In this document: piece after piece, positions 35,393 to 50,203 of the stretch
Position numbering within the stretch: position 1 is the stretch's first letter
Layout: every line of letters begins with the position of its first letter
Assembly: GCF_964048965.1 (NCBI RefSeq)
Contig: NZ_OZ040189.1
Span: 3,104,501 to 3,168,500 of the forward strand
From: Tenacibaculum sp. 190130A14a
Lineage (GTDB): Bacteria > Bacteroidota > Bacteroidia > Flavobacteriales > Flavobacteriaceae
Reading direction: 5' to 3'
Length of the DNA stretch: 64,000 nucleotides
Notes under the pieces: model-generated
Told to the model about the DNA's origin: nothing
Seen by the model: only the letters and a program-made list of their open reading frames with translations
The model's database searches: none
Position numbers and translations under genes: made by a program

Positions 35393-35505
35393 AATTGCTA
35401 TTACTAAAAAAAGAAATGCCGTTTAGGGAAAATTGCTCAAATACTATGAAAACAATCAAAGCATAAGCTTTAAATATTCTCTCGCACTTAACATAGATTT
35501 TAATA

Positions 35506-35540
35506 AGACTCATCCCTTGAGGGTCTCTAAATGTTCGAGG
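35506..35540 (+). ncRNA. Pseudoknot leader, copy 1
   Basis: H-type pseudoknot in the RNA upstream of the first peptide. Stem 1 is AGACTC with GGGTCT, loop 1 is ATC, stem 2 is CCTTGA with TCGAGG, and the crossing loop 3 is 8 nt. Both stems use G-U pairs where the primary sequence differs from the other copies. 28 nt separate it from the ATG. Confidence 0.75.
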
Positions 35541-35568
35541 ATTAATTTAATTTAATTATTATTTAATC

Positions 35569-35742
35569 ATGAAAAACCAAATTTTAAACTTCGGAAAAGC
35601 TTTAAACAACGCTGAGCAAAAAAAAGTAAATGGAGGTAAGTTCGAAATGTCTTGCGCAGAAGCAAACTGGACTCCTTACACTTGTGAGTTAGCTCAACAA
35701 AATCCACCAATGTATGATACTATGTATCGTAAATGCTGTTAA
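35569..35742 (+). CDS. GG-leader cysteine-rich peptide P1
   Basis: 57 residues. The leader of 23 residues (MKNQILNFG ... EQKKVNGG) ends in the double glycine cut by C39 peptidases, with Val at -4. The core has 34 residues and four cysteines (MSC, YTC and a final CC), so two disulfides are possible. It lies between the VKOR fusion and the PCAT gene, preceded by a pseudoknot and followed by a terminator. Function not known; secreted toxin, bacteriocin or signal are the options. Confidence 0.88.
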   Translation: MKNQILNFGKALNNAEQKKVNGGKFEMSCAEANWTPYTCELAQQNPPMYDTMYRKCC

Positions 35743-35750
35743 GCTAATTA

Positions 35751-35785
35751 CCTACCAAATGAGCTTAGCCATTTGGTAGGTTTTT
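35751..35785 (+). terminator. Terminator after P1
   Basis: CCTACCAAATG pairs with CATTTGGTAGG, followed by five Ts. It insulates P1 from the transporter gene, so PCAT1 depends on read-through or its own promoter. Confidence 0.88.
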
Positions 35786-35863
35786 ATATCGAAGATTTTA
35801 AAATAGCCCCTCAGCGTTTCTTATTACTTCGATTGTTTTATACATCTTAAACCTACTATATAG

Positions 35864-38050
35864 TTGAAAAAATTTCCATCATATCGACAAACTGAAGCAA
35901 AAGATTGTGGACCAACATGTATCAAGATCATTGCAAAGCATTATGGTAAAACAATTAACACACAACAACTACGTAAATTAAGTGAAACCACTAGAGAAGG
36001 TAGTAGTTTATTAGGATTAAGTGAGGCTGTTGAATCAATCGGATTCAAATCCTTAGGGATAAAACTAGCGTTTAATAAACTTAAAGAAGCTCCTTTTCCT
36101 TGTATTATCCATTGGAATAAAAATCACTATGTAGTTTTATATAAAATCAAAAAGGATACAGTATACATTTCTGATCCTGCTCATGGGCTCATCACCTTTA
36201 CCAAAGAAGAATTCATTCAACATTGGATAGGTAACAATGCCGATGAAAACACAGAAGAAGGTATTGCGTTACTTGTTGAACCTACTCCTAAGTTTTACAG
36301 CGAGGAGTTTGAAGAAGATGAAAAGTTTGGCTTTGGATTTATTTTCAGATATCTCTTTAAATACAAAAAGTTTGTTGTTCAGTTAATCATTGGGCTATTA
36401 GCAGGAAGTTTATTACAATTAATTCTTCCTTTTTTAACCCAAAGTGTGGTAGATGTTGGTATTAAGAATCAAGACATCAACTTTGTGTACTTAATCTTAT
36501 TTGCACAGTTGTTCTTGTTTATTGGAAAAGCTTCTTTAGAGATTATTAGAAGTTGGATTCTATTACATCTTAGTACAAGAATCAATATTTCTTTGATTTC
36601 CGATTTTTTCATCAAGTTAATGAAATTACCTATTTCTTATTTTGATGTGAGAATGACAGGAGATTTATTACAAAGAATCAATGATCATAAACGTATTGAG
36701 AGAATCTTAACGACATCCTCTTTAACAGTATTGTTCTCCTTTTTCAATTTAATCATATTCAGTTTTGTACTGGCATACTATAGCTTACAAATATTTGGTG
36801 TTTTTGTACTGGGAAGTGTCTTGTATTTCGGTTGGGTACTTTTCTTCTTTAAGAAACGAAAAGAGCTTGATTACAAACGATTCTCTCAAGTAAGTCAAGA
36901 ACAAAGTAAAGTGATTGAGCTGATCAATGGAATGCAGGAAATAAAACTCCATAATGCCGAAAGACGTATGCGATGGAATTGGGAATATGTACAAGCCAGG
37001 TTGTTTAAAGTAGCGACCAAAAGTTTAGCCTTAGAACAAACACAAAGTGTAGGATCTAACTTTATCAACGAACTTAAAAACATGTTCATTACCATACTCT
37101 CTGCCAAACTAGTAATTGATGGAAACATCACACTAGGTATGATGATGGCTATTAGTTATATCGTAGGACAATTAAATGGTCCTATTACACAGCTAATCAA
37201 TTTTATGAGAGATGTACAAGATGCACAAATATCGGTAGACAGGTTAGGAGAAATACACAACATGGAAGATGAGGAAAAACCAGAAGATGAAAAAGTAACA
37301 CAAATTCCTCCAAATGCAGCCATCAAACTCAACAATATCTCTTTTAGATATACTGGAGGATTAGAACCTGTGTTAAAAGATTTATCTCTTGAAATACCGG
37401 CTAATAAGACTACCGCTATTGTAGGAGTTAGTGGTAGTGGAAAGTCTACACTTATGAAACTATTGTTAGGCTTTTACCAAGTAGACAAAGGAGATATTAT
37501 GATTAACAATTTCAATTTAAAGAATATCTCACAAAAGGAATGGAGAAGAAACTGTGGAGTGGTGATGCAAGAAGGATACATCTTTAATGATTCTATTGCT
37601 AAGAACATTGCAGTAGGAGAAGATTATGTAGATAAAGAGAAACTAGCACATGCTATCGATGTAGCAAACATCTCTGATTATATAGAGAGCTTGCCTTTAG
37701 GATACAATACCAAGATAGGAAGTGAAGGTAACGGATTAAGTACAGGACAAAAGCAACGTTTACTCATTGCTAGGTCTGTATATAAAAATCCGAAGTTCTT
37801 ATTCTTTGATGAAGCTACTAGTGCTTTAGATGCCAATAATGAAAAGGTAATTATGGGAAAACTGAATACCTTTTTTGCAGATAAAACTGCAGTGGTGATT
37901 GCCCATAGATTGAGTACGGTAAAAAATGCACATCAAATTGTGGTGTTAGACAAAGGAAAGATCATTGAAAAAGGAACTCATCAAGAGTTAATTAAAATAA
38001 AAGGAAGCTATTATCACCTAGTAAAAAATCAATTAGACCTAGGTAAGTAA
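35864..38050 (+). CDS. C39-peptidase ABC exporter (PCAT), copy 1
   Basis: 728-residue half-transporter that cuts double-glycine leaders and exports the cores. Residues 1–135 are an intact C39 peptidase: oxyanion Gln 9 and catalytic Cys 15 (QTEAKDCGPTC), His in NHYVVLY and Asp in ISDPA. Six-helix transmembrane domain follows (about 160–440). The ATPase domain has Walker A GVSGSGKST, signature LSTGQKQR and Walker B FLFFDEATSALD. The start is TTG, as in copy 2. It differs from the copy at 46661 at only two residues that I can find (Arg/Gln 8 and Ile/Leu near the end). Confidence 0.95.
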   Translation: MKKFPSYRQTEAKDCGPTCIKIIAKHYGKTINTQQLRKLSETTREGSSLLGLSEAVESIGFKSLGIKLAFNKLKEAPFPCIIHWNKNHYVVLYKIKKDTVYISDPAHGLITFTKEEFIQHWIGNNADENTEEGIALLVEPTPKFYSEEFEEDEKFGFGFIFRYLFKYKKFVVQLIIGLLAGSLLQLILPFLTQSVVDVGIKNQDINFVYLILFAQLFLFIGKASLEIIRSWILLHLSTRINISLISDFFIKLMKLPISYFDVRMTGDLLQRINDHKRIERILTTSSLTVLFSFFNLIIFSFVLAYYSLQIFGVFVLGSVLYFGWVLFFFKKRKELDYKRFSQVSQEQSKVIELINGMQEIKLHNAERRMRWNWEYVQARLFKVATKSLALEQTQSVGSNFINELKNMFITILSAKLVIDGNITLGMMMAISYIVGQLNGPITQLINFMRDVQDAQISVDRLGEIHNMEDEEKPEDEKVTQIPPNAAIKLNNISFRYTGGLEPVLKDLSLEIPANKTTAIVGVSGSGKSTLMKLLLGFYQVDKGDIMINNFNLKNISQKEWRRNCGVVMQEGYIFNDSIAKNIAVGEDYVDKEKLAHAIDVANISDYIESLPLGYNTKIGSEGNGLSTGQKQRLLIARSVYKNPKFLFFDEATSALDANNEKVIMGKLNTFFADKTAVVIAHRLSTVKNAHQIVVLDKGKIIEKGTHQELIKIKGSYYHLVKNQLDLGK
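35864..38050 (+). repeat. Near-identical PCAT segment, copy 1 of tandem duplication
   Basis: This whole gene is repeated at 46661–48847, about 10.8 kb away in the same orientation, with only scattered silent changes. The neighbouring VKOR gene (34200–35160) is similarly repeated at 44841–45800. Flanking peptides and HlyD genes are much more diverged, pointing to local gene conversion. Confidence 0.9.
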
Positions 38051-38071
38051 ACATATTTTTTCGCGAAAAAT

Positions 38072-38107
38072 AGACACAAACCTTGAGTGTCTTTAAATAG
38101 TTCAAGG
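38072..38107 (+). ncRNA. Pseudoknot leader, copy 2
   Basis: Stem 1 AGACAC with GTGTCT, loop 1 AAA, stem 2 CCTTGA with TCAAGG, no spacer between stem 2 and the second strand of stem 1, loop 3 TTAAATAGT. TTCGCGAA lies 4 nt upstream, only 9 bp after the PCAT1 stop, so any promoter would have to be inside that gene. 29 nt to the P2 ATG. Confidence 0.85.
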
Positions 38108-38136
38108 ATTTTATCAAATTTTTAAATTATTAAAAA

Positions 38137-38349
38137 ATGAAAAAATCAATTTTAAATTTAGGAAAAGCTATCGCTAAAGCAGATCAAAAAACTATTAATG
38201 GAGGTTTCTTTGATAAAGATCCATGTCCATGTTCTTCTAACTATGTAGTACATTCAGATGGAGCTTGTTCATATGTTTCTAGCTTCCCTGGATCTCCTTT
38301 TAGATGTTTCGCTCAACATGGGCCAGTTAACGGTCTTTGTTGCGAATAA
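38137..38349 (+). CDS. GG-leader cysteine-rich peptide P2
   Basis: 70 residues. The 23-residue leader (MKKSILNLGKA ... KTINGG) is cut after GG with Ile at -4. The 47-residue core begins FFDKDPCPC and has six cysteines, ending in a CC pair. First peptide after PCAT1, behind pseudoknot 2. Its leader DNA is nearly identical to that of P3 and P9 while the core is unrelated. Confidence 0.9.
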   Translation: MKKSILNLGKAIAKADQKTINGGFFDKDPCPCSSNYVVHSDGACSYVSSFPGSPFRCFAQHGPVNGLCCE

Positions 38350-38376
38350 TTAAACTAAACCTATAAATTTATTATT

Positions 38377-38607
38377 ATGAAAAAATCAATTTTAACTTTA
38401 GGAAAAGCTATCACTAAAGCTGATCAAAAAACTATTAACGGAGGTATTGCTCCTTGTGACTACTACCACCAATATAACTTATGTTTCGGACCAGTTCCTG
38501 GATGTCAACCTTGTGGTAGAATAGATGACTACGTTGGAGCAAGAAGTTGTGGGTTATTTATCCATTTTAGTTGTGAAGGTAGCGGTGGTTTCATTCCTAA
38601 ATTCTAA
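38377..38607 (+). CDS. GG-leader cysteine-rich peptide P3
   Basis: 76 residues. Standard 23-residue leader ending TINGG. The 53-residue core starts IAPCDYYHQ and has six cysteines spaced 4, 13, 20, 23, 35 and 43, with aromatic residues between them. It lies 27 bp after P2, has no pseudoknot of its own and is presumably translated from the same RNA. Confidence 0.9.
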   Translation: MKKSILTLGKAITKADQKTINGGIAPCDYYHQYNLCFGPVPGCQPCGRIDDYVGARSCGLFIHFSCEGSGGFIPKF

Positions 38608-38613
38608 TATCTG

Positions 38614-38766
38614 ATGAAAAAGTCAATTTTAAACTTAGGTACAGTTCTTAATAAAAAGGAACAAAAAGAAGTTAACGGAGGACTATACTGGTGTGCTGGT
38701 GGTAATGCCCACACTACAAATAGATGGTGTCCAGTACGTTGCTTCAAAGGGAACTGCTTGCTATAA
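38614..38766 (+). CDS. GG-leader cysteine-rich peptide P4
   Basis: 50 residues, one of the smallest. Leader MKKSILNLG ... KEVNGG, then a 27-residue core with four cysteines (YWC, RWC, VRC, GNC) and a basic, Trp-containing character. The start is 6 bp after the P3 stop. A terminator follows before the HlyD gene. Confidence 0.88.
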   Translation: MKKSILNLGTVLNKKEQKEVNGGLYWCAGGNAHTTNRWCPVRCFKGNCLL

Positions 38767-38788
38767 TTATAGCTGCATCAATTAGCTT

Positions 38789-38814
38789 AGGAGGGGGTAA
38801 CTCCTCCTTTTTTT
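38789..38814 (+). terminator. Terminator after P2-P4
   Basis: AGGAGG pairs with CCTCCT around an 8-nt loop, followed by seven Ts. It separates the peptide group from the HlyD gene. Confidence 0.82.
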
Positions 38815-38826
38815 AAAACAATACTT

Positions 38827-40116
38827 ATGCCTCAGAATAATTCAGACATAGAAATTCGCAGTGAAGAAGTACAAGAAATTTTATCGCATGTGCCCAATTG
38901 GATGATTCGTTGGGGAAATACCTTATTTCTTCTATTGATTCTCTTATTACTATTTATTTCATGGTTTATCAAATACCCCGATGTCATATCTACACAAGTT
39001 ATGGTAACAACTTCTTTTCCTCCAGAAAAAATATACGCAAATACGCGAGGAAAATTCGAAGTTTTTTTAACAAACGAAAACAACCCAATACAAAGAGGAG
39101 ATGTACTCGCAGTTATTGAAAATAGTGCATCTTATAAAGATGTTTTACTTTTAAAAAGCATCATCGATACAATTCACACAAATGTCAATAACTTCAAATT
39201 TCCAATAGATGAAATCCCTCCAATGATTCTTGGAGATATTACTACTAGCTACTCTCAATTTGAAAACGATTATTCTGAATATATCTTAAACAAAAAGCTA
39301 ACTCCTTTTAAATCAGAAAACATTGCTAATCAAATGTCTGTGATAGAGTCCAAAAGCAGACTACAAATCCTATTATCTCAAAAAGAAATGAGTAGTAAGG
39401 AACTCAGTATAAAAGAAAATGATTTAGAAAGAAGTCTTAAAATGTATGAAAAAGGAGTTATTTCAGCAAAAGAAAAAGGACTTAGAGAAGTATCTTTTCT
39501 ACAAGCTCAAAGAACACATCAAGGTTTAGAAACTTCTATTTCACAAATACGAGAACTTATTAGTAGTTCTAATAGAAATTTAAAAGGTTCTTCTATCAAA
39601 AAAATTCAAAATGACACCCGCCTTCAAAAGAAAGCGATTCAATCATTTTTATATTTAAAAAAAGCTATTAAAGATTGGGAAAGGCAATATGCCTTAACAA
39701 GTTCAATAAATGGCAAAGTATCTTTTTTGTCATATTGGAATGAAAATCAAACCGTTCAACAAGGTGATCTAATCTTTACAATTTTACCAGATAAAAACAC
39801 AACTTTTATAGGTAAAATAAAAGCTCCTGCTACCAATTCAGGAAAAATTAAAAAAGGACAAAAAGTTCAAATAAAGCTACTGAACTATCCTTCTGATGAA
39901 TTCGGAGAACTCAATGGAGAAGTACAGTCAATTTCACTTTTACCGGATGAAAAAGGCAACTACCTAATAGATGTTAAATTACCTCAGGATTTAAAAACAA
40001 CTTATGAAAAAGAAATTGTATTTCGACAAGAAATGCAGGGGACTGCAGCTATTATAACTGAAGATTTACGATTGATAGAACGATTTTTCTATCAACTTAA
40101 AAATATAATTAAATAA
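38827..40116 (+). CDS. HlyD-family secretion adaptor, copy 1
   Basis: 429-residue periplasmic adaptor linking the PCAT exporter to an outer-membrane channel. One N-terminal transmembrane helix (TLFLLLILLLLFISWFI), then lipoyl/barrel-sandwich halves separated by a coiled coil (about 130–270, with KSRLQILLSQKEMSSKELS), and a C-terminal beta-barrel (KIKKGQKVQIKLLNYPSDEFG). No TolC-type gene is in the window. It is clearly diverged from the copy at 50244, unlike the PCAT genes. Confidence 0.92.
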   Translation: MPQNNSDIEIRSEEVQEILSHVPNWMIRWGNTLFLLLILLLLFISWFIKYPDVISTQVMVTTSFPPEKIYANTRGKFEVFLTNENNPIQRGDVLAVIENSASYKDVLLLKSIIDTIHTNVNNFKFPIDEIPPMILGDITTSYSQFENDYSEYILNKKLTPFKSENIANQMSVIESKSRLQILLSQKEMSSKELSIKENDLERSLKMYEKGVISAKEKGLREVSFLQAQRTHQGLETSISQIRELISSSNRNLKGSSIKKIQNDTRLQKKAIQSFLYLKKAIKDWERQYALTSSINGKVSFLSYWNENQTVQQGDLIFTILPDKNTTFIGKIKAPATNSGKIKKGQKVQIKLLNYPSDEFGELNGEVQSISLLPDEKGNYLIDVKLPQDLKTTYEKEIVFRQEMQGTAAIITEDLRLIERFFYQLKNIIK

Positions 40117-40135
40117 AACATCATTCGCGAAGGAT

Positions 40136-40171
40136 AGACACAAGCCTTGAGTGTCTTTAAAGTGTTCAAGG
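40136..40171 (+). ncRNA. Pseudoknot leader, copy 3
   Basis: Stem 1 AGACAC with GTGTCT, loop 1 AAG, stem 2 CCTTGA with TCAAGG, loop 3 TTAAAGTGT (9 nt). TTCGCGAA lies 4 nt upstream, 7 bp after the HlyD stop. 25 nt to the P5 ATG. Confidence 0.85.
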
Positions 40172-40196
40172 GTTTAATCAAATTAATCTTATTAAT

Positions 40197-40373
40197 ATGA
40201 AAAATTCAATTTCAAATTTAGGTTCAATACTAAGTAGTAAAGAACAAAAAAGCATTAACGGAGGGAAACATGAATCTTGTTTTACTCACAAAGATTGCCC
40301 TGCTGGTCAAGGTTGTTGTCCAATGCTCGGTTTGTGTTTTAGAGATGACTACCCTAGTTGTCATTTAATCTAA
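40197..40373 (+). CDS. GG-leader peptide P5 with inhibitor-cystine-knot spacing
   Basis: 58 residues. Leader MKNSISNLG ... KSINGG, then a 35-residue core with cysteines in the order C-X5-C-X5-CC-X5-C-X7-C. That is the six-cysteine CC-centred pattern of inhibitor cystine knots, found in many animal toxins. P7 and P13 have the same order. Fold is a prediction from spacing; the core starts KHESC and ends SCHLI. Confidence 0.88.
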   Translation: MKNSISNLGSILSSKEQKSINGGKHESCFTHKDCPAGQGCCPMLGLCFRDDYPSCHLI

Positions 40374-40484
40374 AATATCAACTTACGTAACCAAACTAAC
40401 AAACTATTATAAATAAGATTTGAACTCTTTTTACATGTATAATTTATAACCCTTAAATTTTAAGGAAACAATCAAATTTTAATT

Positions 40485-40697
40485 ATGAAAAAAAACATTT
40501 TAAACTTAGGAACACAGTTAAACAGAATTGAACAACAAACTATTAAAGGTAGTGATTTTGACAATGCTCCACTAGGGGAGTGCTTAGAGCCAGGAACATT
40601 TCCTCCAGTAGTTATTGCTAGAGTTCCTTGTAATCAAAAATGTCCAAATGGGTTAACTCCTTTTTGTTTTGCTACAGAAGGAGGAGAGTTATTTTAA
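40485..40697 (+). CDS. Variant-leader cysteine-rich peptide P6
   Basis: 70 residues. The leader (MKKNILNLG ... QQTIKGS) ends in Gly-Ser instead of Gly-Gly. The core of 47 residues is acidic at its N-terminus and has four cysteines (GEC, VPC, QKC, PFC). It lacks the pseudoknot; instead a perfect-looking CCTTAAA/TTTTAAGG dyad lies in the upstream spacer. C39 peptidases can accept GS, but cutting may be slower. It may be a decaying or specialised member. Confidence 0.82.
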   Translation: MKKNILNLGTQLNRIEQQTIKGSDFDNAPLGECLEPGTFPPVVIARVPCNQKCPNGLTPFCFATEGGELF

Positions 40698-40727
40698 TAT
40701 ACTTATCTCGTTTAACTAAGAAAATCA

Positions 40728-40752
40728 AAGGAGAAGCCTAGGCTTCTCCTTA
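40728..40752. terminator. Bidirectional terminator between P6 and the lipoprotein gene
   Basis: AAGGAGAAGCC pairs with GGCTTCTCCTT with only TA between, so the real loop is a little larger. It lies between convergent genes. Confidence 0.8.
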
Positions 40753-40781
40753 TTTACATTATGTTACATATTAAGTCCAAA

Positions 40782-41501: not shown

Positions 41502-41526
41502 AAATTACTTTTAAATATTCATACTA

Positions 41527-41595
41527 AGTTCAAAAGTACAAAGGAACTTAGGGGCAACTTTATCCAGTTCAAATTCGTTCATGCTGAGTTCAAAT
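41527..41595. promoter_or_regulatory. Possible LytTR-binding direct repeats
   Basis: AGTTCAAA occurs at 41527, 41566 and 41587. The last two (CCAGTTCAAATTCG and TGAGTTCAAATACG) are 21 bp apart, the two-helical-turn spacing of AgrA-type LytTR sites, whose half-site contains AGTT. They lie upstream of the lipoprotein gene, and on its strand TACTTTTG near 41530–41540 could be the -7 element. Confidence 0.5.
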
Positions 41596-41609
41596 ACGTT
41601 ATAAAAGAA

Positions 41610-42344
41610 TTAAAACAAATCTTTTAAAACCATCTCTTTTCTCCTAGTAGCTACTGGGATTTGAGCTCCTGTTTTGGTAATTAAAAAGCCTTCATTTGTG
41701 TACTTAGTTATGTAGGCTTTATTTATGATATAAGATTGATGACACTTTATAAACCTTTTTTTATCTAGCAATTCTTCCACTTTCTTCATAGGCTTAGAAA
41801 TGACAATATTCTCCTCAAAAAGATAAAAAGTTGTATAATTTCCTTCTGATTTACAATACAGTATATCGTCAAATGAAACTAAATGCTGAGTATCTAATGT
41901 TTTCAGTACTATTCTACGATGTTCTCCTTCTCTATAATAATGATTTGCAATATTAACAGAGCTTCCTGTAGTGTTTTCTTTTTCAATTGTATTAATTGCC
42001 TTGTTTACAGCCTCCTTAAATTCATCATCATCTATGGGCTTTAATAAATAATCTAATGCTCCCAAACGAATTGCTTTTATGGCATGAGAGTCAAAACCAG
42101 TTATAAAAATAATCTTGAAATCAATCTCGTTTAACTCTGATAAAATGTCAAAACTAGTACCATCTCCTAAATCAACATCCATAAAAACTAACTGAGGTTG
42201 GTACCTTATAATTTTTTCAATCCCTTCTTTAACAGAAATTGCTTCATCTATTATGGTTAACTCATTGCGAAAATCTTGAAAGACTCTCTTTTTTATGTTT
42301 TCCCTTACATGTCTTTCATCTTCAACTATCAATGTTTTTAGCAT
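41610..42344 (-). CDS. LytTR-family response regulator
   Basis: 244 residues. Receiver domain 1–120 with phosphoacceptor Asp 56 (FMDVDLG), acidic pocket (VEDE) and conserved Lys (LLKPID). C-terminal LytTR DNA-binding domain (ILYCKSEGNYTTFYL, FIKCHQSYIINKAYI, IPVATRRKEMV). It follows the sensor kinase with 2 bp between them. Targets may include the lipoprotein gene at 41501 and perhaps the peptide modules that flank it on both sides. Confidence 0.93.
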   Translation of the reverse strand: MLKTLIVEDERHVRENIKKRVFQDFRNELTIIDEAISVKEGIEKIIRYQPQLVFMDVDLGDGTSFDILSELNEIDFKIIFITGFDSHAIKAIRLGALDYLLKPIDDDEFKEAVNKAINTIEKENTTGSSVNIANHYYREGEHRRIVLKTLDTQHLVSFDDILYCKSEGNYTTFYLFEENIVISKPMKKVEELLDKKRFIKCHQSYIINKAYITKYTNEGFLITKTGAQIPVATRRKEMVLKDLF

Positions 42345-42346
42345 TT

Positions 42347-44185
42347 CTAATATAATTTATAAGGTATTTTTAATAACACCTTTGTTCCCCTATCTTGTTT
42401 GTTTAATTCCTTTTTATTAACAATAATTATTCCTTTTCCTGTCATTTTTTTTAAAAACTCATCAATTAACTTTACTGAAGATTTCTTATTCAAACCATTT
42501 TCATCAATTCCAACTCCATCATCGTCAATAATACAACTAAGAAACTTATTTTCTAACTCTAATTGAATTTTTATATTTCCTGTAACCTCCTCTTTTTTAA
42601 AGGCATGAAGTATTGCATTTTCAACAAAAGGCTGCAACAGCATGGGCGGTATTAGTACTTCATCTTCTTCATTTATGGTGTTCTCTATACTATAGTTAAA
42701 CCTTCCTTGAAATCTAAATTGTTGCAGTTCTATATAGTTTTGTAAAGACTCTAACTCATCTTCTATGGGCACATAATTTTTTGTAGAATTTTCAAAAATA
42801 GCCCTTAACAACTTAGAAAATTTTTGAATATACTTTAATGACTTTTCTTTATCATCTTCAATATTATTCTTTATCAAACTTAAGCTATTAAATGTAAAGT
42901 GAGGATTCATTTGAGAACGTAACAAACGCTGATGTAATAAAAAGTTATCCTGTTCTATTTTAAACTTACGTTGTCTGTAAAAATTCAACACAAGTATTCC
43001 TATTACTATGGCTAATAACAATAATACTGCTAAAATGTATTGATTTCTTTCAAAAATAAAACTCTCTATCTCTGCTTCTCTCTTTTCTTTTTCTAAGGTA
43101 ATCTCTTTTTCAAAAGCCACTTTAGAAGCTTTTAGCTCGCTATCAATCCTTTCTGAATAATTCTTATCCTGATACTTAAATATTGAATCTAACTTAGCCA
43201 TCACTGAAGTCAAATTTTCTTTTCGGTAATGTGATACTTCCAAACTCTTTTTTAGAGCTGCTCGTTGATCATCATACTCAATATCACTGATTCCTAAATT
43301 GTATACAGAATCTAAATATTGTTCAGCGATGTTGTACTTTTTTAAACCGATATATGAATTTGACAGGTTAATATAATTATTAACCAACCTTTGTTTAATT
43401 AAATTCTTTTGTTTTAACTGTTTTGTAAAAAATAAAGCTTTATCAAATTCAACAATGGCCTTATTATAAAAACCATTCTTGTTATAGTAATAGCCTTTAG
43501 AAGCATAAAGTTGATATTTCCCAAGTGAATCTAGTTTATGTTCAAACTTAAAATTATCTAATATATCACCTGCCTTTTCTTGATTTTTTAAAGTACTATA
43601 TAAAACAGCATTACTAATTTTTGACATACCATGATTAGCAGTATCTCCTGCTTTTAAAAAGTAATCTGCAGCCAATTTACTTGCTGCTAAAGCTCCTTCA
43701 TATTCTTCTAAAGCTAACTTTACGTTGTGCTTAAATTGATAAACAAATGCTTTATTTTTATAGTCATCATCCTTTAACAAGGCTAACAACTTCTCATTTA
43801 TTTTTTCTGCACTCAGATAATCATTCTTTTTACGATAATACACTAGAGACAACGCCCGGAAAAACAACACTTCTCTATCTGATTTTATTCTATCTGTTGT
43901 AAATGACGTTACATAGTTTAATATATTGATTGCTTCATCATATTTACCCAAACTATAATTAAACCTTGATTTAGCAAAACTATACTCTGCTTTTAATGAA
44001 TCCGATAAGTGTTCTTTTGGTATATTTTCTAATTCTTCTAAGTAGTAGTTTAATGAATCTGTTTCTAAATAAACTTTCGTATTGTAGTAATGTGGTAAGT
44101 TCGGTTCTTCTAAATTGCTCAGTCTTTTTTGACATCCGAAAAACACAATAAAGCTAAACAATAGTTGTAGTAGTATTCTTTTCAT
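42347..44185 (-). CDS. TPR sensor histidine kinase, LytS/YehU type
   Basis: 612 residues. Lipoprotein-like signal (LLFSFIVFFGC), a periplasmic TPR domain to about residue 360, one transmembrane helix (YILAVLLLLAIVIGILVLNF), then a His_kinase domain with phosphoacceptor His in MNPHFTFNSLSLIKN and an ATP-binding domain (PPMLLQPFVENAILHAF, DDDGVGID). This is the common Bacteroidota architecture. The signal is unknown. It pairs with the LytTR regulator directly downstream. Confidence 0.92.
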   Translation of the reverse strand: MKRILLQLLFSFIVFFGCQKRLSNLEEPNLPHYYNTKVYLETDSLNYYLEELENIPKEHLSDSLKAEYSFAKSRFNYSLGKYDEAINILNYVTSFTTDRIKSDREVLFFRALSLVYYRKKNDYLSAEKINEKLLALLKDDDYKNKAFVYQFKHNVKLALEEYEGALAASKLAADYFLKAGDTANHGMSKISNAVLYSTLKNQEKAGDILDNFKFEHKLDSLGKYQLYASKGYYYNKNGFYNKAIVEFDKALFFTKQLKQKNLIKQRLVNNYINLSNSYIGLKKYNIAEQYLDSVYNLGISDIEYDDQRAALKKSLEVSHYRKENLTSVMAKLDSIFKYQDKNYSERIDSELKASKVAFEKEITLEKEKREAEIESFIFERNQYILAVLLLLAIVIGILVLNFYRQRKFKIEQDNFLLHQRLLRSQMNPHFTFNSLSLIKNNIEDDKEKSLKYIQKFSKLLRAIFENSTKNYVPIEDELESLQNYIELQQFRFQGRFNYSIENTINEEDEVLIPPMLLQPFVENAILHAFKKEEVTGNIKIQLELENKFLSCIIDDDGVGIDENGLNKKSSVKLIDEFLKKMTGKGIIIVNKKELNKQDRGTKVLLKIPYKLY

Positions 44186-44440
44186 ACAAACTTATAAATA
44201 AATTTAACAAAGCTAATTATTTTCTATTTATGTTTTCTCTATATAAAGAACGTTCAGCTTCTGATTTTCTTTTATTTACTTAATTTTATAATGAAAACAG
44301 AAAAAATATAGAATGAAAAACAAATAATCACTAAATCTTAACAGTTTTGAATTCATTCTGCACAGATATGAATTTGTCTAAAAATGCTGTTCTTCTACTT
44401 CTATATTCGTCTTCACAATTAATAACCTACTACTTATTTT

Positions 44441-46027
44441 ATGGAACACTCATTAACAAATCTTGTACAAAGATTATTAAAGAGCAATACAATCTCTTTT
44501 GATAAAGACGAATTGATTTTTCAAATACAAAGTCATCCGTCATATCCAAGTTTACATGCTATCACTGGTGTATTAGATCATTTCAATATTGAAAATGTTG
44601 CTGCAGATGTTCCTGCTAATAAAGAAACTTTGGTACAATTACCTGACTGTTTCTTAGCTCAAATATCCACAGATAACAGAAAAGATCTTGTTATTGTACA
44701 AAGGAAAGGTTTAGACTATTTTATTTACAATTCAGAGAACAAAAAAGAAAAATATACTGAAGAAGAGTTTCTTCAAAAGTTTACAGGAATTATTGTTGCT
44801 GTAGAAAAAACAGGTGAGAGTGTTCAACCAGAGAAGAAATCTAATCTTATCAAATTTATAGCTCTTGGTTTGTTAATTAGTTTAACAGGTTTCTCTTTGT
44901 ATCAAAGTTCAGTTAATTTATTTACACTTGGCTATTTCGTATTATCTGTTGTCGGAATTGTTACAAGTATTGCTATTGTTAAACAAGAATTAGGATTAAA
45001 AACATCTATCGGAAATGCCTTTTGTTCAGGAGCAGATGATAAGAAAGATTGTGATGCTGTATTAACCTCTAAAGGAGCAGAAATTATAAAAGGATATAAA
45101 CTTAGTGATTTAAGTGTGTTATATTTTTCTGGACTTACTCTATTAACGTTAGCACAAATTTCTAATCCTGCCATTGCCTATACCATTAGTTTATTAGCAA
45201 TTCCAGTTACTTTATATTCTATCTATTATCAATATGCTGTTGTAAAAAAATGGTGTATGTTATGTTTGAGTATTGTAGGGGTTTTATGGTTACAAGCAGC
45301 AGTTCCTTTAATTACCAATACGTATATCACTGAATTTGTACCAACCAGCTTTGTTACTTTTGGTATCGTTGCTTCAATAACCTGGTTAGCTTGGTATTAT
45401 ATAAAACCATTAGTAGCAGAAGTAACTGAATTAAGAAAAGAAAAAATAGAACATGTTAAGTTTAAAAGAAACTTTACGTTGTTTGATAATTTATTACAAA
45501 AATCACCGCAATTACATACCCAAATAACAAACAGTCAAGAGATTGTTTTTGGAAATCCTAACTCAACTTTAGAGTTAACCATTGTAACCAATCCATTTTG
45601 TGGACATTGTAAGCCTGTGCATGAGCATATTGATGAGATTTTACATCGCTATGCAAATAATGTAAAGATCAAAATCAGGTTCAATATCAACATTCAAGAC
45701 AAAGAAGGTGATGCTGTAAAAATTACTAGTCGTCTTATAGAAATATACCATACCCAAGGAAGTGAGGCTTGTTTAAAAGCTATGGATGCTATTTACGGAG
45801 GAGAAAAGCCAGAGAAGTGGTTGCAAACTTATGATAATTGCAATCAAAAAGAATTGTATATCGAAGAATTAGAAAGAGAAAACACTTGGTGTCAAGATAA
45901 CTCGATTAATTTCACTCCAGAAATATTAGTAAACGGAAGATCATTCCCTAAAGAATACAATAGAACAGACCTAATCTTCTTTATAGAAGAACTAGAAGAA
46001 AAACATCAGGAATTAGTTACTGTTTGA
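44441..46027 (+). CDS. Degenerate C39-like / VKOR / thioredoxin fusion, copy 2
   Basis: 528 residues, same architecture as the protein at 33800: C39-like domain without catalytic Cys, VKOR with CMLC, thioredoxin-like domain with CGHC. Residues from about 165 to 440 are identical between copies; differences cluster in the first 165 and the last 85 residues (for example QLPDCF against QLPDSF). The extra Cys in this copy's C39-like part (about residue 70) is not at the catalytic position. Starts with ATG. First gene of module 2. Confidence 0.88.
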   Translation: MEHSLTNLVQRLLKSNTISFDKDELIFQIQSHPSYPSLHAITGVLDHFNIENVAADVPANKETLVQLPDCFLAQISTDNRKDLVIVQRKGLDYFIYNSENKKEKYTEEEFLQKFTGIIVAVEKTGESVQPEKKSNLIKFIALGLLISLTGFSLYQSSVNLFTLGYFVLSVVGIVTSIAIVKQELGLKTSIGNAFCSGADDKKDCDAVLTSKGAEIIKGYKLSDLSVLYFSGLTLLTLAQISNPAIAYTISLLAIPVTLYSIYYQYAVVKKWCMLCLSIVGVLWLQAAVPLITNTYITEFVPTSFVTFGIVASITWLAWYYIKPLVAEVTELRKEKIEHVKFKRNFTLFDNLLQKSPQLHTQITNSQEIVFGNPNSTLELTIVTNPFCGHCKPVHEHIDEILHRYANNVKIKIRFNINIQDKEGDAVKITSRLIEIYHTQGSEACLKAMDAIYGGEKPEKWLQTYDNCNQKELYIEELERENTWCQDNSINFTPEILVNGRSFPKEYNRTDLIFFIEELEEKHQELVTV

Positions 46028-46106
46028 TCGGTCAATTGCTATTCTTAAAAGAAAACGTTTTTGGGAAAATTGCTCCTTTAAAATAAAATATTCTCTCGCG
46101 AAGAAT

Positions 46107-46140
46107 AGACACAAATGGTGAGTGTCTTTAAATGTTCACC
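46107..46140 (+). ncRNA. Pseudoknot leader, copy 4, with covarying stem 2
   Basis: Stem 1 AGACAC with GTGTCT, loop 1 AAA. Stem 2 is GGTGA with TCACC instead of CCTTGA with TCAAGG: both strands changed together, which is direct covariation support. Loop 3 is TTAAATGT. TCGCGAA lies 4 nt upstream. 28 nt to the P7 ATG. Confidence 0.87.
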
Positions 46141-46168
46141 TAACAAATAACTTTAACTATTTTCTATT

Positions 46169-46360
46169 ATGAAAAATTCAATTTTAAACTTAGGAACAGC
46201 ATTAAAAAGAGCTGAACAAAAACAAATTAACGGTGGACGAAAATATTGCGAATCACATGAAGATTGTGGAACAGGATGCTGTAATACCTCGCGTTTCTGC
46301 CAAGTTTTTGGAGCTCCAAACACAGGAGGGCTTTTATGTGATGGGAGTTTATCTCTATAA
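46169..46360 (+). CDS. GG-leader peptide P7 with inhibitor-cystine-knot spacing
   Basis: 63 residues. Leader MKNSILNLG ... KQINGG. The 40-residue core has C-X5-C-X3-CC-X5-C-X12-C, another CC-centred six-cysteine order. The start RKYCESHEDCGTGCC closely recalls the DC..G.CC segment of many animal cystine-rich peptides; that resemblance may be convergent. First peptide of module 2, behind pseudoknot 4. Confidence 0.88.
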   Translation: MKNSILNLGTALKRAEQKQINGGRKYCESHEDCGTGCCNTSRFCQVFGAPNTGGLLCDGSLSL

Positions 46361-46411
46361 AAAATCTCATTCATAAAAACTGCAAGACTAGTATTAATAT
46401 AATTAAAAAAC

Positions 46412-46570
46412 ATGAAAAATTCAATTTTAAACTTAGGAACAGCTTTAAAAAGAACTGAGCAAAAACAAATTAATGGAGGTAGAAAACAATGTGATGCCAA
46501 CGATGATGGAAACTGTGAAGATTTCGGAAGACATTGTGCTGAATTTTATTGTCGTTTTATTCTTCAATAA
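46412..46570 (+). CDS. GG-leader cysteine-rich peptide P8
   Basis: 52 residues. Leader nearly identical to P7. The 29-residue core has four cysteines spaced C-X7-C-X6-C-X4-C, an acidic N-terminal half (DANDDGNCED) and a hydrophobic C-terminus. It is 51 bp after P7 with no pseudoknot of its own. Confidence 0.87.
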   Translation: MKNSILNLGTALKRTEQKQINGGRKQCDANDDGNCEDFGRHCAEFYCRFILQ

Positions 46571-46613
46571 AACAACCTAAAAACAGTGTTATGCAGAATA
46601 CTGTTTCTAATTT

Positions 46614-46642
46614 AAAAAGGAGAATTAAATGGTTCTCCTTTT
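46614..46642 (+). terminator. Terminator after P7-P8
   Basis: AAAAGGAGAA pairs with TTCTCCTTTT around an 8-nt loop. The T-run is short (four). It lies just before the PCAT2 TTG start. Confidence 0.65.
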
Positions 46643-46660
46643 ATCTAAAACTATATATAG

Positions 46661-48847
46661 TTGAAAAAATTTCCATCATATCAACAAACTGAAGCAAAAG
46701 ATTGTGGTCCAACATGTATCAAGATCATTGCAAAACATTATGGTAAAACAATTAACACACAACAACTACGTAAATTAAGTGAGACCACTAGAGAAGGTAG
46801 TAGTTTATTAGGATTAAGTGAGGCTGTTGAATCAATCGGATTCAAATCCTTAGGGATAAAACTAGCGTTTAATAAGCTTAAAGAAGCTCCTTTTCCTTGT
46901 ATTATCCATTGGAATAAAAATCACTATGTAGTTTTATATAAAATAAAAAAGGATACAGTATACATTTCTGATCCTGCTCATGGGCTCATCACCTTTACCA
47001 AAGAAGAATTCATTCAACATTGGATAGGTAACAATGCCGATGAAAACACAGAAGAAGGTATTGCGTTACTTGTTGAACCTACTCCTAAGTTTTACAGCGA
47101 GGAGTTTGAAGAAGATGAAAAGTTTGGCTTTGGATTTATTTTCAGATATCTCTTTAAATACAAAAAGTTTGTTGTTCAGTTAATCATTGGGCTATTAGCA
47201 GGAAGTTTATTACAATTAATTCTTCCTTTTTTAACCCAAAGTGTGGTAGATGTTGGTATTAAGAATCAAGACATCAACTTTGTGTACTTAATCTTATTTG
47301 CACAGTTGTTCTTGTTTATTGGAAAAGCTTCTTTAGAGATTATTAGAAGTTGGATTCTATTACATCTTAGTACAAGAATCAATATTTCTTTGATTTCCGA
47401 TTTTTTCATCAAGTTAATGAAATTACCTATTTCTTATTTTGATGTGAGAATGACAGGAGATTTATTACAAAGAATCAATGATCATAAACGTATTGAGAGA
47501 ATCTTAACGACATCCTCTTTAACAGTATTGTTCTCCTTTTTCAATTTAATCATATTCAGTTTTGTACTGGCATACTATAGCTTACAAATATTTGGTGTTT
47601 TTGTACTGGGAAGTGTCTTGTATTTCGGTTGGGTACTTTTCTTCTTTAAGAAACGAAAAGAGCTTGATTACAAACGATTCTCTCAAGTAAGTCAAGAACA
47701 AAGTAAAGTGATTGAGCTGATCAATGGAATGCAGGAAATAAAACTCCATAATGCCGAAAGACGTATGCGATGGAATTGGGAATATGTACAAGCCAGGTTG
47801 TTTAAAGTAGCGACCAAAAGTTTAGCCTTAGAACAAACACAAAGTGTAGGATCTAACTTTATCAACGAACTTAAAAACATGTTCATTACCATACTCTCTG
47901 CCAAACTAGTAATTGATGGAAACATCACACTAGGTATGATGATGGCTATTAGTTATATCGTAGGACAATTAAATGGTCCTATTACACAGCTAATCAATTT
48001 TATGAGAGATGTACAAGATGCACAAATATCGGTAGACAGGTTAGGAGAAATACACAACATGGAAGATGAGGAAAAACCAGAAGATGAAAAAGTAACACAA
48101 ATTCCTCCAAATGCAGCCATCAAACTCAACAATATCTCTTTTAGATATACTGGAGGATTAGAACCTGTGTTAAAAGATTTATCTCTTGAAATACCGGCTA
48201 ATAAGACTACCGCTATTGTAGGAGTTAGTGGTAGTGGAAAGTCTACACTTATGAAACTATTGTTAGGCTTTTACCAAGTAGACAAAGGAGATATTATGAT
48301 TAACAATTTCAATTTAAAGAATATCTCACAAAAGGAATGGAGAAGAAACTGTGGAGTGGTGATGCAAGAAGGATACATCTTTAATGATTCTATTGCTAAG
48401 AACATTGCTGTAGGAGAAGATTATGTAGATAAAGAGAAGCTAGCACATGCTATCGATGTAGCAAACATATCTGATTATATAGAGAGCTTGCCTTTAGGAT
48501 ACAATACCAAGATAGGAAGTGAAGGTAATGGACTAAGTACAGGACAAAAGCAACGTTTACTAATTGCTAGGTCTGTATATAAAAATCCGAAGTTCTTATT
48601 CTTTGATGAAGCTACCAGTGCTTTAGATGCCAATAATGAAAAGGTAATTATGGGAAAACTGAATACCTTTTTTGCAGATAAAACTGCAGTGGTGATTGCC
48701 CATAGGTTGAGTACGGTAAAAAATGCACATCAAATTGTGGTATTGGACAAAGGAAAGATCATTGAAAAAGGAACTCATCAAGAGTTAATCAAATTAAAAG
48801 GAAGTTATTATCACCTAGTAAAAAACCAATTAGACCTAGGTAAATAA
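46661..48847 (+). CDS. C39-peptidase ABC exporter (PCAT), copy 2
   Basis: 728 residues, intact C39 peptidase (Cys 15), transmembrane domain and ATPase (GVSGSGKST, LSTGQKQR, FDEATSALD), nearly identical to the protein at 35864. Also starts with TTG. Such identity between genes in modules whose HlyD proteins are clearly diverged points to recent gene conversion. Both copies should accept the same leaders, so peptides from either module can probably use either exporter. Confidence 0.95.
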   Translation: MKKFPSYQQTEAKDCGPTCIKIIAKHYGKTINTQQLRKLSETTREGSSLLGLSEAVESIGFKSLGIKLAFNKLKEAPFPCIIHWNKNHYVVLYKIKKDTVYISDPAHGLITFTKEEFIQHWIGNNADENTEEGIALLVEPTPKFYSEEFEEDEKFGFGFIFRYLFKYKKFVVQLIIGLLAGSLLQLILPFLTQSVVDVGIKNQDINFVYLILFAQLFLFIGKASLEIIRSWILLHLSTRINISLISDFFIKLMKLPISYFDVRMTGDLLQRINDHKRIERILTTSSLTVLFSFFNLIIFSFVLAYYSLQIFGVFVLGSVLYFGWVLFFFKKRKELDYKRFSQVSQEQSKVIELINGMQEIKLHNAERRMRWNWEYVQARLFKVATKSLALEQTQSVGSNFINELKNMFITILSAKLVIDGNITLGMMMAISYIVGQLNGPITQLINFMRDVQDAQISVDRLGEIHNMEDEEKPEDEKVTQIPPNAAIKLNNISFRYTGGLEPVLKDLSLEIPANKTTAIVGVSGSGKSTLMKLLLGFYQVDKGDIMINNFNLKNISQKEWRRNCGVVMQEGYIFNDSIAKNIAVGEDYVDKEKLAHAIDVANISDYIESLPLGYNTKIGSEGNGLSTGQKQRLLIARSVYKNPKFLFFDEATSALDANNEKVIMGKLNTFFADKTAVVIAHRLSTVKNAHQIVVLDKGKIIEKGTHQELIKLKGSYYHLVKNQLDLGK
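46661..48847 (+). repeat. Near-identical PCAT segment, copy 2 of tandem duplication
   Basis: Direct repeat of 35864–38050. Most visible base differences are near the two ends (for example Gln codon at residue 8, and several silent changes in the last 450 bp), with long unchanged stretches in the middle. Confidence 0.9.
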
Positions 48848-48850
48848 AAC

Positions 48851-48886
48851 AGACATACACCTTGAATGTCTTTAAATAGCTCAAGG
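48851..48886 (+). ncRNA. Pseudoknot leader, copy 5, with covarying stem 1
   Basis: Stem 1 is AGACAT with ATGTCT (last pair C-G replaced by T-A: both strands changed). Loop 1 ACA, stem 2 CCTTGA with TCAAGG, loop 3 TTAAATAGC. It starts 3 bp after the PCAT2 stop and has no TTCGCGAA in front. 31 nt to the P9 ATG. Confidence 0.85.
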
Positions 48887-48917
48887 AACAATTAATCAAA
48901 CTTAAAATTTTTTAATT

Positions 48918-49142
48918 ATGAAAAAATCAATTTTAAATTTAGGAAAAGCTATCACGAAAGCTGATCAAAAAACTATTAACGGAGGTAGAATGTTAGCTCA
49001 TGGTGGTTACCAATGTTGTAATGCTTGGGGATGTGGTGCATGTGTTACTGGTTCAAATGAAGACTGTAGCGTATACGGAGAAGATGTATATGGGCAACAT
49101 TGTACCGTAGGAGGAGCTTCTTTAACGGCAGCTATACAATAA
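48918..49142 (+). CDS. GG-leader cysteine-rich peptide P9
   Basis: 74 residues. Leader almost the same as P2 and P3. The 51-residue core (RMLAHGGYQCCNAWGCGAC...) has six cysteines with the CC pair first and then GC.AC, plus a long Gly/Ala tail. Own pseudoknot and own terminator, so it is a complete single-peptide cassette. Confidence 0.9.
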   Translation: MKKSILNLGKAITKADQKTINGGRMLAHGGYQCCNAWGCGACVTGSNEDCSVYGEDVYGQHCTVGGASLTAAIQ

Positions 49143-49151
49143 AATGCTTCC

Positions 49152-49179
49152 AAAAGCCCACGTAATCGTGGGCTTTTTT
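49152..49179 (+). terminator. Terminator after P9
   Basis: AAAAGCCCACG pairs with CGTGGGCTTTT around TAAT, with six Ts. A strong intrinsic terminator in the middle of the peptide cluster. Confidence 0.92.
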
Positions 49180-49258
49180 AAATTAAACTTACTTAAAAAT
49201 TGTAACAATATCATTGTTATAATGATTACACAAAACATATAAAACTTTCGCGAAGAAT

Positions 49259-49294
49259 AGACACAAACCTTGGGTGTCTTTAAATAGTTCAAGG
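49259..49294 (+). ncRNA. Pseudoknot leader, copy 6
   Basis: Stem 1 AGACAC with GTGTCT, loop 1 AAA, stem 2 CCTTGG with TCAAGG (final pair G-U), loop 3 TTAAATAGT. TTCGCGAA lies 4 nt upstream. It follows the P9 terminator by 79 bp, so here a promoter could fit between them. 27 nt to the P10 ATG. Confidence 0.85.
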
Positions 49295-49321
49295 ATTTTA
49301 TCAAATTTTAAATTATATAAA

Positions 49322-49516
49322 ATGAAAAAATCAATTTTAAACTTAGGAAAAACATTAGACAAAACTGAACAGCAAAACATTAACGGAGGTATGAGACGTT
49401 GTTCTTCATTATTCTTTTGCGCATTTGATTGTGGTGAAGGAGATGCATGTGCCGTTCCAAACGGATTAGGTGGAGCGAATAGAGGTACAATTGTTAACGG
49501 ACAATGTTGTTTATAA
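49322..49516 (+). CDS. GG-leader cysteine-rich peptide P10
   Basis: 64 residues from the ATG at 49322; a longer frame from 49274 would run through the pseudoknot and is rejected. Leader MKKSILNLG ... QNINGG. The 41-residue core has six cysteines (RRC, FFC, FDC, DAC and a final CC) and a Gly/Asn-rich linker before the CC. Confidence 0.88.
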   Translation: MKKSILNLGKTLDKTEQQNINGGMRRCSSLFFCAFDCGEGDACAVPNGLGGANRGTIVNGQCCL

Positions 49517-49520
49517 TATT

Positions 49521-49718
49521 ATGAAAAAGTCAATTTTAAACTTAGGACAAGCTTTAAACAAAGCTGAGCAAAAACAAGTTAACGGAGGAAATAGTTGCCC
49601 AGGCCCAATTTGTTATGGAATTAGTGCAATGGGATGTGGTACTTGTGAGCAATATCATACACTTCCTGACAACTGTAAAATGAGAGTTTTAGTAAGCGTT
49701 AACTGTTTCGGAATTTAA
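49521..49718 (+). CDS. GG-leader cysteine-rich peptide P11
   Basis: 65 residues, starting 4 bp after the P10 stop, so translation is probably coupled. Leader MKKSILNLG ... KQVNGG. The 42-residue core has six cysteines (NSC, PIC, MGC, GTC, DNC, VNC). An upstream in-frame ATG at 49470 lies inside P10 and is not needed. Confidence 0.88.
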   Translation: MKKSILNLGQALNKAEQKQVNGGNSCPGPICYGISAMGCGTCEQYHTLPDNCKMRVLVSVNCFGI

Positions 49719-49725
49719 TTATAGA

Positions 49726-49911
49726 ATGAAAAAGTCAATATTAACTTTAGGAAAAGCCTTAAATAAGGAGGCACAGCAAAAAGTGAACGGAGGTATGTTT
49801 ACCAACAACTGTTTTAACATTACAGATAGCTCTAGCTGCACTGCTAAAAGAGGTTGTCAATGGTTTGGATGTTATTGTGGACCAAATACTCCACATTTTG
49901 CTCCTTGCTAG
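49726..49911 (+). CDS. GG-leader cysteine-rich peptide P12
   Basis: 61 residues, 7 bp after P11. Leader MKKSILTLG ... QKVNGG. The 38-residue core has six cysteines (NNC, SSC, RGC, FGC, YC and the C-terminal APC) and is aromatic. Last of the P10–P12 group; the next pseudoknot starts 26 bp after it. Confidence 0.88.
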   Translation: MKKSILTLGKALNKEAQQKVNGGMFTNNCFNITDSSSCTAKRGCQWFGCYCGPNTPHFAPC

Positions 49912-49937
49912 TATATAATCAAATCTTTCGCGAATAA

Positions 49938-49973
49938 CGACACATTCCTTGAGTGTCTTTAAATGGTTCAGGG
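49938..49973 (+). ncRNA. Pseudoknot leader, copy 7
   Basis: Stem 1 is GACAC with GTGTC (5 bp), loop 1 ATT, stem 2 CCTTGA with TCAGGG (one T-G pair), loop 3 about 9–10 nt. TTCGCGAA lies 3–4 nt upstream. 28 nt to the P13 ATG. Confidence 0.82.
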
Positions 49974-50001
49974 GTAAGATTCAATTATAAAAATCATAGA
50001 A

Positions 50002-50172: not shown

Positions 50173-50203
50173 ATTATTTGCTTTATTTGACAAATCAAAT
50201 TAC

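Follow-up and report, generated by a model that had tools for sequence, protein, structure and literature searches.

A compact H-type pseudoknot stands before genes for GG-leader peptides at seven places in a 64,000-nt stretch of Tenacibaculum sp. 190130A14a (contig NZ_OZ040189.1, positions 3,104,501 to 3,168,500 of the forward strand; hereafter the window), and covariation shows, as far as a comparison of sequences goes, that it is a real RNA-level structure. Its two crossing stems, the hallmark of an H-type pseudoknot, were found to be kept by compensatory change, and the element is present in many marine flavobacteria. Judged in this way, it is a genuine RNA family with no earlier description found in the open-licence literature searched, and its target set and host biology appear unusual within the pseudoknot regulators of 5′ untranslated regions (5′ UTRs). 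Selection at the RNA level, a link to GG-leader genes, a narrow spacing to the start codon and the lack of a fixed promoter signal were all observed. We hold it an even bet that the element is a cis-acting RNA which, by way of a shared partner (either a protein or the 30S subunit), controls how translation of the exported peptides is initiated.

All seven copies lie on the forward strand and were recovered, by direct reading and by parsing, where a first-pass annotation made from the sequence alone had placed them. Copy 2 (38072-38107; ATG at 38137) and copy 3 (40136-40171; ATG at 40197) have the strands AGACAC/GTGTCT in stem 1 and CCTTGA/TCAAGG in stem 2. Copy 6 (49259-49294; ATG at 49322) has AGACAC/GTGTCT with CCTTGG/TCAAGG, and copy 5 (48851-48886; ATG at 48918), which begins 3 nt past a transporter stop codon, has AGACAT/ATGTCT with CCTTGA/TCAAGG. 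Copy 1 (35506-35540; ATG at 35569) carries AGACTC/GGGTCT and CCTTGA/TCGAGG, copy 7 (49938-49973; ATG at 50002) carries GACAC/GTGTC and CCTTGA/TCAGGG, and copy 4 (46107-46140; ATG at 46169) has the compensated stem 2 GGTGA/TCACC. With the search model R1, built from six window copies with stem 2 paired, copies 1, 2, 3, 5, 6 and 7 scored 57.9, 76.4, 68.2, 62.3, 72.6 and 62.8 bits as training sequences, and copy 4, which is outside the training set, scored 44.3 bits.

The geometry first described for these copies held well. Six copies have a stem 1 of 6 pairs, and copy 7 has one of 5, with a C facing a T in the outer position; loop 1 measures 3 nt, although counting stem 2 of copy 4 as 5 bp makes it 4 nt there; no base lies between stem 2 and stem 1 in the window copies; and loop 3 is 8-9 nt, beginning TTAAA in six copies and CTAAA in copy 1. 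From stem 2 to the ATG there are 28, 29, 25, 27, 31, 27 and 28 nt in copies 1-7, which is the range of 25-31 nt given before. The covariation claimed within the window stood in part: compensation is full in copy 4 (GGTGA/TCACC) and, in copy 5, for the innermost stem-1 pair only, and copy 1, which had been offered as a further case, has wobbles only.

A loose scan of the window for pseudoknot geometry gave 18 G+C-rich matches on the forward and 23 on the reverse strand; three order-1 Markov resamplings of the forward strand gave 4, 1 and 4. The scan was set aside as proof, not being discriminating on its own. Nested minimum-energy folds of four copies (z from -1.9 to +0.1) were uninformative for a pseudoknot. 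Chance is excluded because the copies share sequence, position and conservation in relatives, and not shape alone. When the whole genome (3.94 Mb) was scanned with at most 3 mismatches to the core pattern, 13 places were obtained, against 0 for a reversed control. Six of these are further copies at 3.692-3.706 Mb, 0.54 Mb from the window, and all six precede GG-leader open reading frames (ORFs); the set of seven was thus correct for the window and incomplete for the genome.

Strong evidence for the fold came from stem 2. Across 129 distinct rows, 97.4% of its cells were paired, as compared with at most 53.5% in slid registers; 139 cells were changed on both sides against 37.1 (standard deviation 5.3) in shuffles, the covariation score was 0.318 against 0.140 in shuffles, and a two-sided change was seen somewhere for all six pairs. 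In 89 copies fetched by a pattern that leaves out the outer 3′ strand of stem 2, all four outer pairs formed in 65, against 12.7% with swapped partners; in 42 held-out copies they formed in 33. Loop 1 was AAA in most copies, and the commonest forms of loop 3 were TTAAATGT and TTAAATGA.

The rows for the stem-2 test had been fetched with a pattern that fixes stem 1, and stem 1 was therefore judged in an RNA-blind sample, in which codons for EQKxINGG were sought in 299 genomes of the family and led to 28 genes in 12 genomes. The usual stem 1 was found by script before 14 of these genes; by reading, 7 more had a drifted stem 1 and 1 was a weak case. The drifted stems were of the TGGCA/TGCCA type (e.g. 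TGGCAT/ATGCCA), GACT/AGTC and AGATAC/GTGTTT. A strict pseudoknot scan blind to sequence also found the fold before 15 of the 28 genes, as compared with 0 of 560 resampled sequences and 1 of 303 large ORFs. Covariation in both stems, predicted for a wide alignment, was thus obtained: for stem 2 in the excess of two-sided change, and for stem 1 in the compensation seen in the RNA-blind sample.

For the distribution of the element, R1 and a second model, R2 (96 sequences), were run with an E-value of 0.01 per genome, and stricter filters may have lost weak genomes. R1 matched 43 of 146 congeneric genomes, the matched ones having 2-23 copies each. In the family it matched 40 of 397 genomes (32 of 237 genera), of which about four of the weakest may be chance by expectation. 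Among genomes drawn from the order, R2 matched 15 of 346 (7 of 104 genera), including a strong match in a different family (G608) along with two weak ones (G785, G817); of 395 genomes drawn from the phylum it matched 8 (2 of 170 genera), all within the own family. A scan of one genome per species (84,980 species), with a pattern in which stem 1 and some of stem 2 are fixed, found at least 111 stretches; among the matches listed were Tenacibaculum, Aquimarina, Winogradskyella, Dokdonia, Bizionia, Kordia, Olleya, Lacinutrix, Ulvibacterium, Leptobacterium, Mangrovimonas and several metagenome-assembled genomes (MAGs). Eighty stretches were used for analysis (79 in one step, with the Lysinibacillus locus L173 left out), and the other 31 were kept as the held-out check with its 42 copies. 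The element and the usual kind of peptide gene were also seen on a MAG contig labelled Oligoflexales (L223), which is probably a mis-binned flavobacterial contig. A viral or mobile origin was rejected: the single match in a viral collection had, by eye, neither a complementary stem 2 nor a GG ORF and was taken as chance, as was the Lysinibacillus match.

The element is also linked to peptide genes. With GG required at residues 13-45 of the following ORF, 261 of 301 distinct copies preceded a GG ORF, as compared with 86 of 497 random ATG ORFs of 25-130 aa; 170 of the first 192 copies passed this test, and in the held-out matches a GG ORF followed 42 of 42 copies. The proposed linkage is therefore well borne out, and a scattering of copies without peptide genes was not observed. 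The ATG lay 24-31 nt past stem 2 in 269 of the 284 copies with an ORF. Within the genus, a C39 peptidase (E up to 1e-15) was present in 41 of 43 genomes with the element against 26 of 103 others (Fisher p = 4e-16). Together these sequence patterns suggest a shared RNA-level regulon for peptide export. The spacing also serves as an annotation handle, an ATG 24-31 nt past the fold predicting a peptide gene; none of nine window peptides (six from first genes, three from second or third genes) had a match in an NCBIfam search, including to TIGR04149, the GG-leader precursor family of ribosomally synthesized and post-translationally modified peptides. The peptide of one relative locus (L091) scored 17.2 with TIGR04149, against a curated cut-off of 25.

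The sequence between the fold and the start codon was distinctive as well. In 242 element-led GG genes the spacer contained 2.2% G, against 10.2% in control ORFs (n = 349); A was found at -3 in 90% (control 46%) and at -12 in 88% (control 48%), and TTAAA occurred within -26 to -7 in 64% of the spacers (control 21%). Flavobacterium johnsoniae mRNAs are described, in the part of PMC6847099 available to us, as lacking a Shine-Dalgarno (SD) sequence and having weak structure across -20 to +20, with A at -3 as a positive determinant of initiation and -6, -12 and -13 also named.

In the mechanism that we favour, the element would sit in the 5′ UTR of secreted-peptide genes, or between two genes that share an mRNA, and the mRNA would fold there into a compact H-type pseudoknot of two ~6-bp stems with no linker, a 3-nt loop 1 rich in A and, as loop 3, the conserved UUAAAUGU/A. 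The fold, mostly 24-31 nt before the start codon, ends at about -25 to -32, just outside the ribosome initiation region, and is followed by a G-poor spacer with Kozak-like adenines. One shared partner, an RNA-binding protein or the 30S subunit itself, would recognise the fold and its conserved loops, and by this contact the start of translation would be set jointly for the exported peptides, in bacteria that seldom use SD pairing. An effect on initiation through a shared partner is favoured because the fold ends just outside the initiation window and because the distance to the ATG is similar before four lipoprotein-like genes (21, 24, 28 and 28 nt). We infer that the element acts on translation rather than on mRNA stability, and likewise the existence of the partner and the direction of the effect. 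If this holds, the element would offer an entry to how Bacteroidota tune initiation. In a more specific form, which we regard as rather unlikely, the pseudoknot would be a ribosome-recruiting module that uses its conserved loop 3 to dock near bS1 on the 30S platform and puts the Kozak-like start region in position, a bacterial 5′ element like an internal ribosome entry site, reused for secreted peptides and a few lipoproteins.

Several observations weigh against control of initiation by a conserved fold. Six of the 28 GG genes in the RNA-blind sample have no element. The apparent conservation of stem 1 under R1 and R2 is partly ascertainment, and it is overstated because both models score stem 1 as sequence and the genome pattern fixes it. 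The shuffle controls ignore relatedness, against which the main safeguard is the many pair types across genera together with the swapped-partner test. Forty of the 301 copies fail the GG test. Some of them have GS, GA or GK leaders, lie at the end of a contig, or stand before peptide ORFs that are interrupted or displaced; others precede lipoproteins or different proteins, and a few are weak or doubtful as matches. Upstream, 10 of the 210 copies suited to a stop-codon analysis (enough upstream sequence, a score of at least 20 and an ORF found) start 2-13 nt past a stop codon, where a terminating ribosome would cover stem 1. As for the start region, position -6 is T-rich here (64%), contrary to the F. 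johnsoniae trend, and 64 GG genes without a copy, tandem and other, are intermediate in context (A at -3 in 84%, TTAAA in 36%), which indicates that strong initiation needs no element and that the context is not specific to it.

The position of the element relative to other genes bears on another explanation, in which it marks or stabilises mRNA: a rigid stack of dyad and pseudoknot would protect or define the 5′ end of short, abundant peptide mRNAs that are cut from, or started inside, exporter operons, and would raise the mRNA level and not translation per mRNA. The element does head runs of peptide genes. None of 42 GG genes (by leader pattern) lying at most 60 nt behind another GG gene had a copy, as compared with 12 of 21 at gaps of 61-120 nt and 67 of 88 where the 120 nt upstream contained no GG gene (of the 21 others here, some are not convincing as GG genes); this first-gene pattern is partly trivial because a gap of up to 60 nt has no room for the element. 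Many copies also lie directly past stop codons, 63 of 210 beginning within 30 nt of one, often that of an exporter gene, and the inverted repeat described below abuts stem 1 and shows some covariation of its arms. The narrow spacing to the ATG would be unexpected for a pure stabiliser, and copies without the dyad are common. A barrier to the 5′-3′ exonuclease RNase J is less likely, as the search of the own genome for RNase J gave one weak match of 21.7 bits and nothing above the family cut-off (other nucleases were not searched). We consider a stabiliser or processing mark possible, though on the unlikely side.

The inverted repeat, which the first-pass annotation had not reported, is a TCGCGA dyad centred 7-8 nt before stem 1 in window copies 2, 3, 4, 6 and 7. 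It reads TTCGCGAA before copy 2 (38060-38067, starting 10 nt past the transporter stop codon at 38048-38050) and, read directly, before copies 3 (40124-40131), 6 (49247-49254) and 7 (49927-49934), all on the forward strand; before copy 4 it is the longer repeat ATTCT-CTCGCGA-AGAAT (46090-46106, forward strand), whose arms were paired in the minimum-energy fold. Copy 1 has no intact dyad and copy 5 has none. TCGCGA was the dyad centre in 107 of 178 copies, and perfect dyads with a half-length of at least 3 were found in 132 of 178 copies, as compared with 23 of 177 control stretches further upstream. By distance to the upstream stop codon, the dyad was present in 0 of 10 copies within 14 nt, 11 of 15 at 14-20 nt and 30 of 38 at 20-30 nt. 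Its arms covaried weakly and in two registers, one with a 1-nt bulge and one without (148 of 266 sequences after thinning for similarity), so that an RNA hairpin and a DNA dyad are inseparable here, and the dyad was not taken as an RNA hairpin specifically.

Such a dyad would suit a dimeric regulator, and it could be proposed that the dyad and the sequence after it form a promoter or operator, with the pseudoknot incidental. We judge this very improbable: both stems show compensatory change in a crossing topology, and the 10 copies within 14 nt of a stop codon keep the pseudoknot without the dyad. A fixed sigma-A signal was likewise missing. Column conservation (142 of 175 sequences after thinning for similarity) starts 23 nt before stem 1, with none from there up to -80, which argues that no fixed promoter precedes the element. 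The -33 TTG is part of the sigma-A promoter. Its -7 box is TAnnTTTG, as given in the portion of PMC9723704 at hand. In the 77 copies with room for a promoter, lying 90 nt or more from an ORF, TTG-N17-23-TAnnTTTG occurred 4 times, as compared with 0.6 in shuffles; the 71 near copies had 0, as compared with 0.5. TAnnTTTG by itself occurred 11 times in far copies (9.8) and 5 times in near copies (5.4). A sigma-A promoter at a fixed place was therefore rejected, and the earlier argument against a simple promoter role is strengthened by the lack of a fixed upstream signal.

In the window, the GG-leader genes behind the copies, all on the forward strand, occupy 35569-35742 (copy 1; no NCBIfam or Pfam family at E up to 0.01), 38137-38349 (copy 2; followed by GG genes at 38377 and 38614 without their own copy), 40197-40373 (copy 3), 46169-46360 (copy 4; followed by a GG gene at 46412 without its own copy), 48918-49142 (copy 5), 49322-49516 (copy 6; the ORF list gives an upstream GTG start, and GG genes without a copy follow at 49521 and 49726) and 50002-50172 (copy 7), those of copies 3, 5 and 7 as in the ORF list. 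A terminator-like hairpin, GCCCACG/CGTGGGC with a T run, was seen by reading at 49156-49179 between the gene of copy 5 and copy 6, and copy 6 should consequently need its own promoter within ~80 nt. The export genes, also on the forward strand, include a peptidase-containing ABC exporter (C39 and ABC) at 35864-38050 (Pfam C39, 3.2e-38), with a near-identical copy by reading at 46661-48847, and an HlyD-type adaptor at 38827-40116 (Pfam HlyD_3, 4.7e-15), with a similar gene by reading at 50244-51533. Very similar sets of VKOR-thioredoxin, C39 exporter and HlyD genes were read at 33800-40116 and 44441-51533 of the window and at the second locus (L014:4491-11717), and the likeness of these sequences suggests recent duplication or gene conversion.

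A LytTR response regulator lies beside a sensor-kinase gene near each peptide cluster, on the reverse strand (window 41610-44185; L014:12759-15697); LytTR was recognised by Pfam at both loci, and the kinase by Pfam in the window and by reading at L014. Three scattered GG-leader genes of the own genome (L270, L275 and L278, at about 86, 1412 and 1607 kb) have no element and share TTACGGT/CCTTACTT blocks ~65-90 nt before the ATG, with TACGGT-type repeats 22 bp apart in two of them. The blocks resemble a LytTR-type direct-repeat site, and peptides of this kind may thus possibly be controlled in a second way, at transcription. This arrangement was found in 0 of 240 stretches of 300 nt upstream of elements.

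Some elements stand before genes of another kind. Aquimarina lipoprotein-like ORFs follow it at L178 (elements at 202-254 and 1126-1178) and L192 (289-341), and no GG-leader ORF of at least 60 aa was listed in the 8 kb of L178 examined; a signal-peptide-like start follows it at L094 and a long ORF of unknown kind at L079. In the window a CHAT-domain protein (30225-32942; Pfam CHAT, 1.4e-48) is encoded upstream of the peptide genes. At L095 the element and a lipoprotein-like ORF come directly after a CHAT protein (32-1432; Pfam CHAT, 9.8e-58), an order that hints at a functional link. The regulon may, on this gene content, be wider than peptides. At five further loci (L052, L155, L225, L065 and L037) the element leads peptide ORFs that are interrupted or have no ATG in place, apparent pseudogenes with a preserved leader.

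Among known RNA families no counterpart was found, in agreement with the first impression of the element. Rfam 15 (4227 families), searched over the window at gathering score, gave five tRNAs only and none at the elements, and between 33 and 52 kb at E up to 10 it gave nine sub-threshold matches, none over an element. The open-licence literature, searched for the element or its peptides, gave no description among the matches listed. PreQ1-I, SAM-II and SAM-V are among the small H-type pseudoknot riboswitches. The element resembles them in its compact two-stem pseudoknot, its conserved loops and its place in the 5′ UTR; it differs in having no Rfam match and no SD or terminator platform in view, and in not being tied to one metabolic pathway. 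A ligand riboswitch, in which the pseudoknot would be a small aptamer whose ligand alters 30S access, would accord with conserved loops on drifting stems, which are aptamer-like, and 2-23 copies per genome would be possible for a messenger-sensing regulon. Yet no expression platform was seen, neither terminator nor sequestered SD being found by eye between element and ATG in the seven window copies; the spacer is nearly free of G, the hosts rarely use SD as far as the consulted part of PMC6847099 goes, and the target genes suggest no common metabolite. We thus regard a riboswitch as improbable.

Structured RNAs of the same phylum, Bacteroid-trp, Flavo-1 and Bacteroidales-1, have Rfam accessions that were unmatched here (PMC2864571, seen in part). 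The same partial source (Weinberg 2010) describes the STAXI motif, which is alike in being made of repeated pseudoknots near related genes; those are tandem repeats near genes for DNA-binding or DNA-manipulating proteins in Enterobacteriales, whereas here single units each precede one ATG.

A likeness is also seen to the gene 32 operator of phages T4 and RB69, in which a pseudoknot precedes a leader that has less structure and carries UUAAA units as far as the start codon; in T4 the pseudoknot is ~28 nt and the less structured RNA with UUAAA repeats exceeds 40 nt (both from the accessible part of PMC535899). By analogy, a cooperative single-strand-binding protein (SSB) would nucleate on the pseudoknot, spread over the AU-rich spacer and block initiation. 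The operator layout and the frequency of TTAAA in the spacer speak for such repression; the low G content given above may point to weak structure, as judged by composition alone. TTAAA was also found in 36% of the 64 GG genes without an element, the spacer is shorter than in the T4 operator, and no candidate binder was found, none having been looked for. The downstream genes are mostly GG-leader peptides and not that of an SSB which would control its own synthesis, and we consider gp32-like repression quite improbable. As described in that part of the source, the gene 32 operator serves one autoregulated SSB gene in a phage, with an operator region that includes the SD; unlike it, the present element occurs in up to 23 copies per genome before exported peptides, with a shorter spacer, in hosts that rarely use SD.

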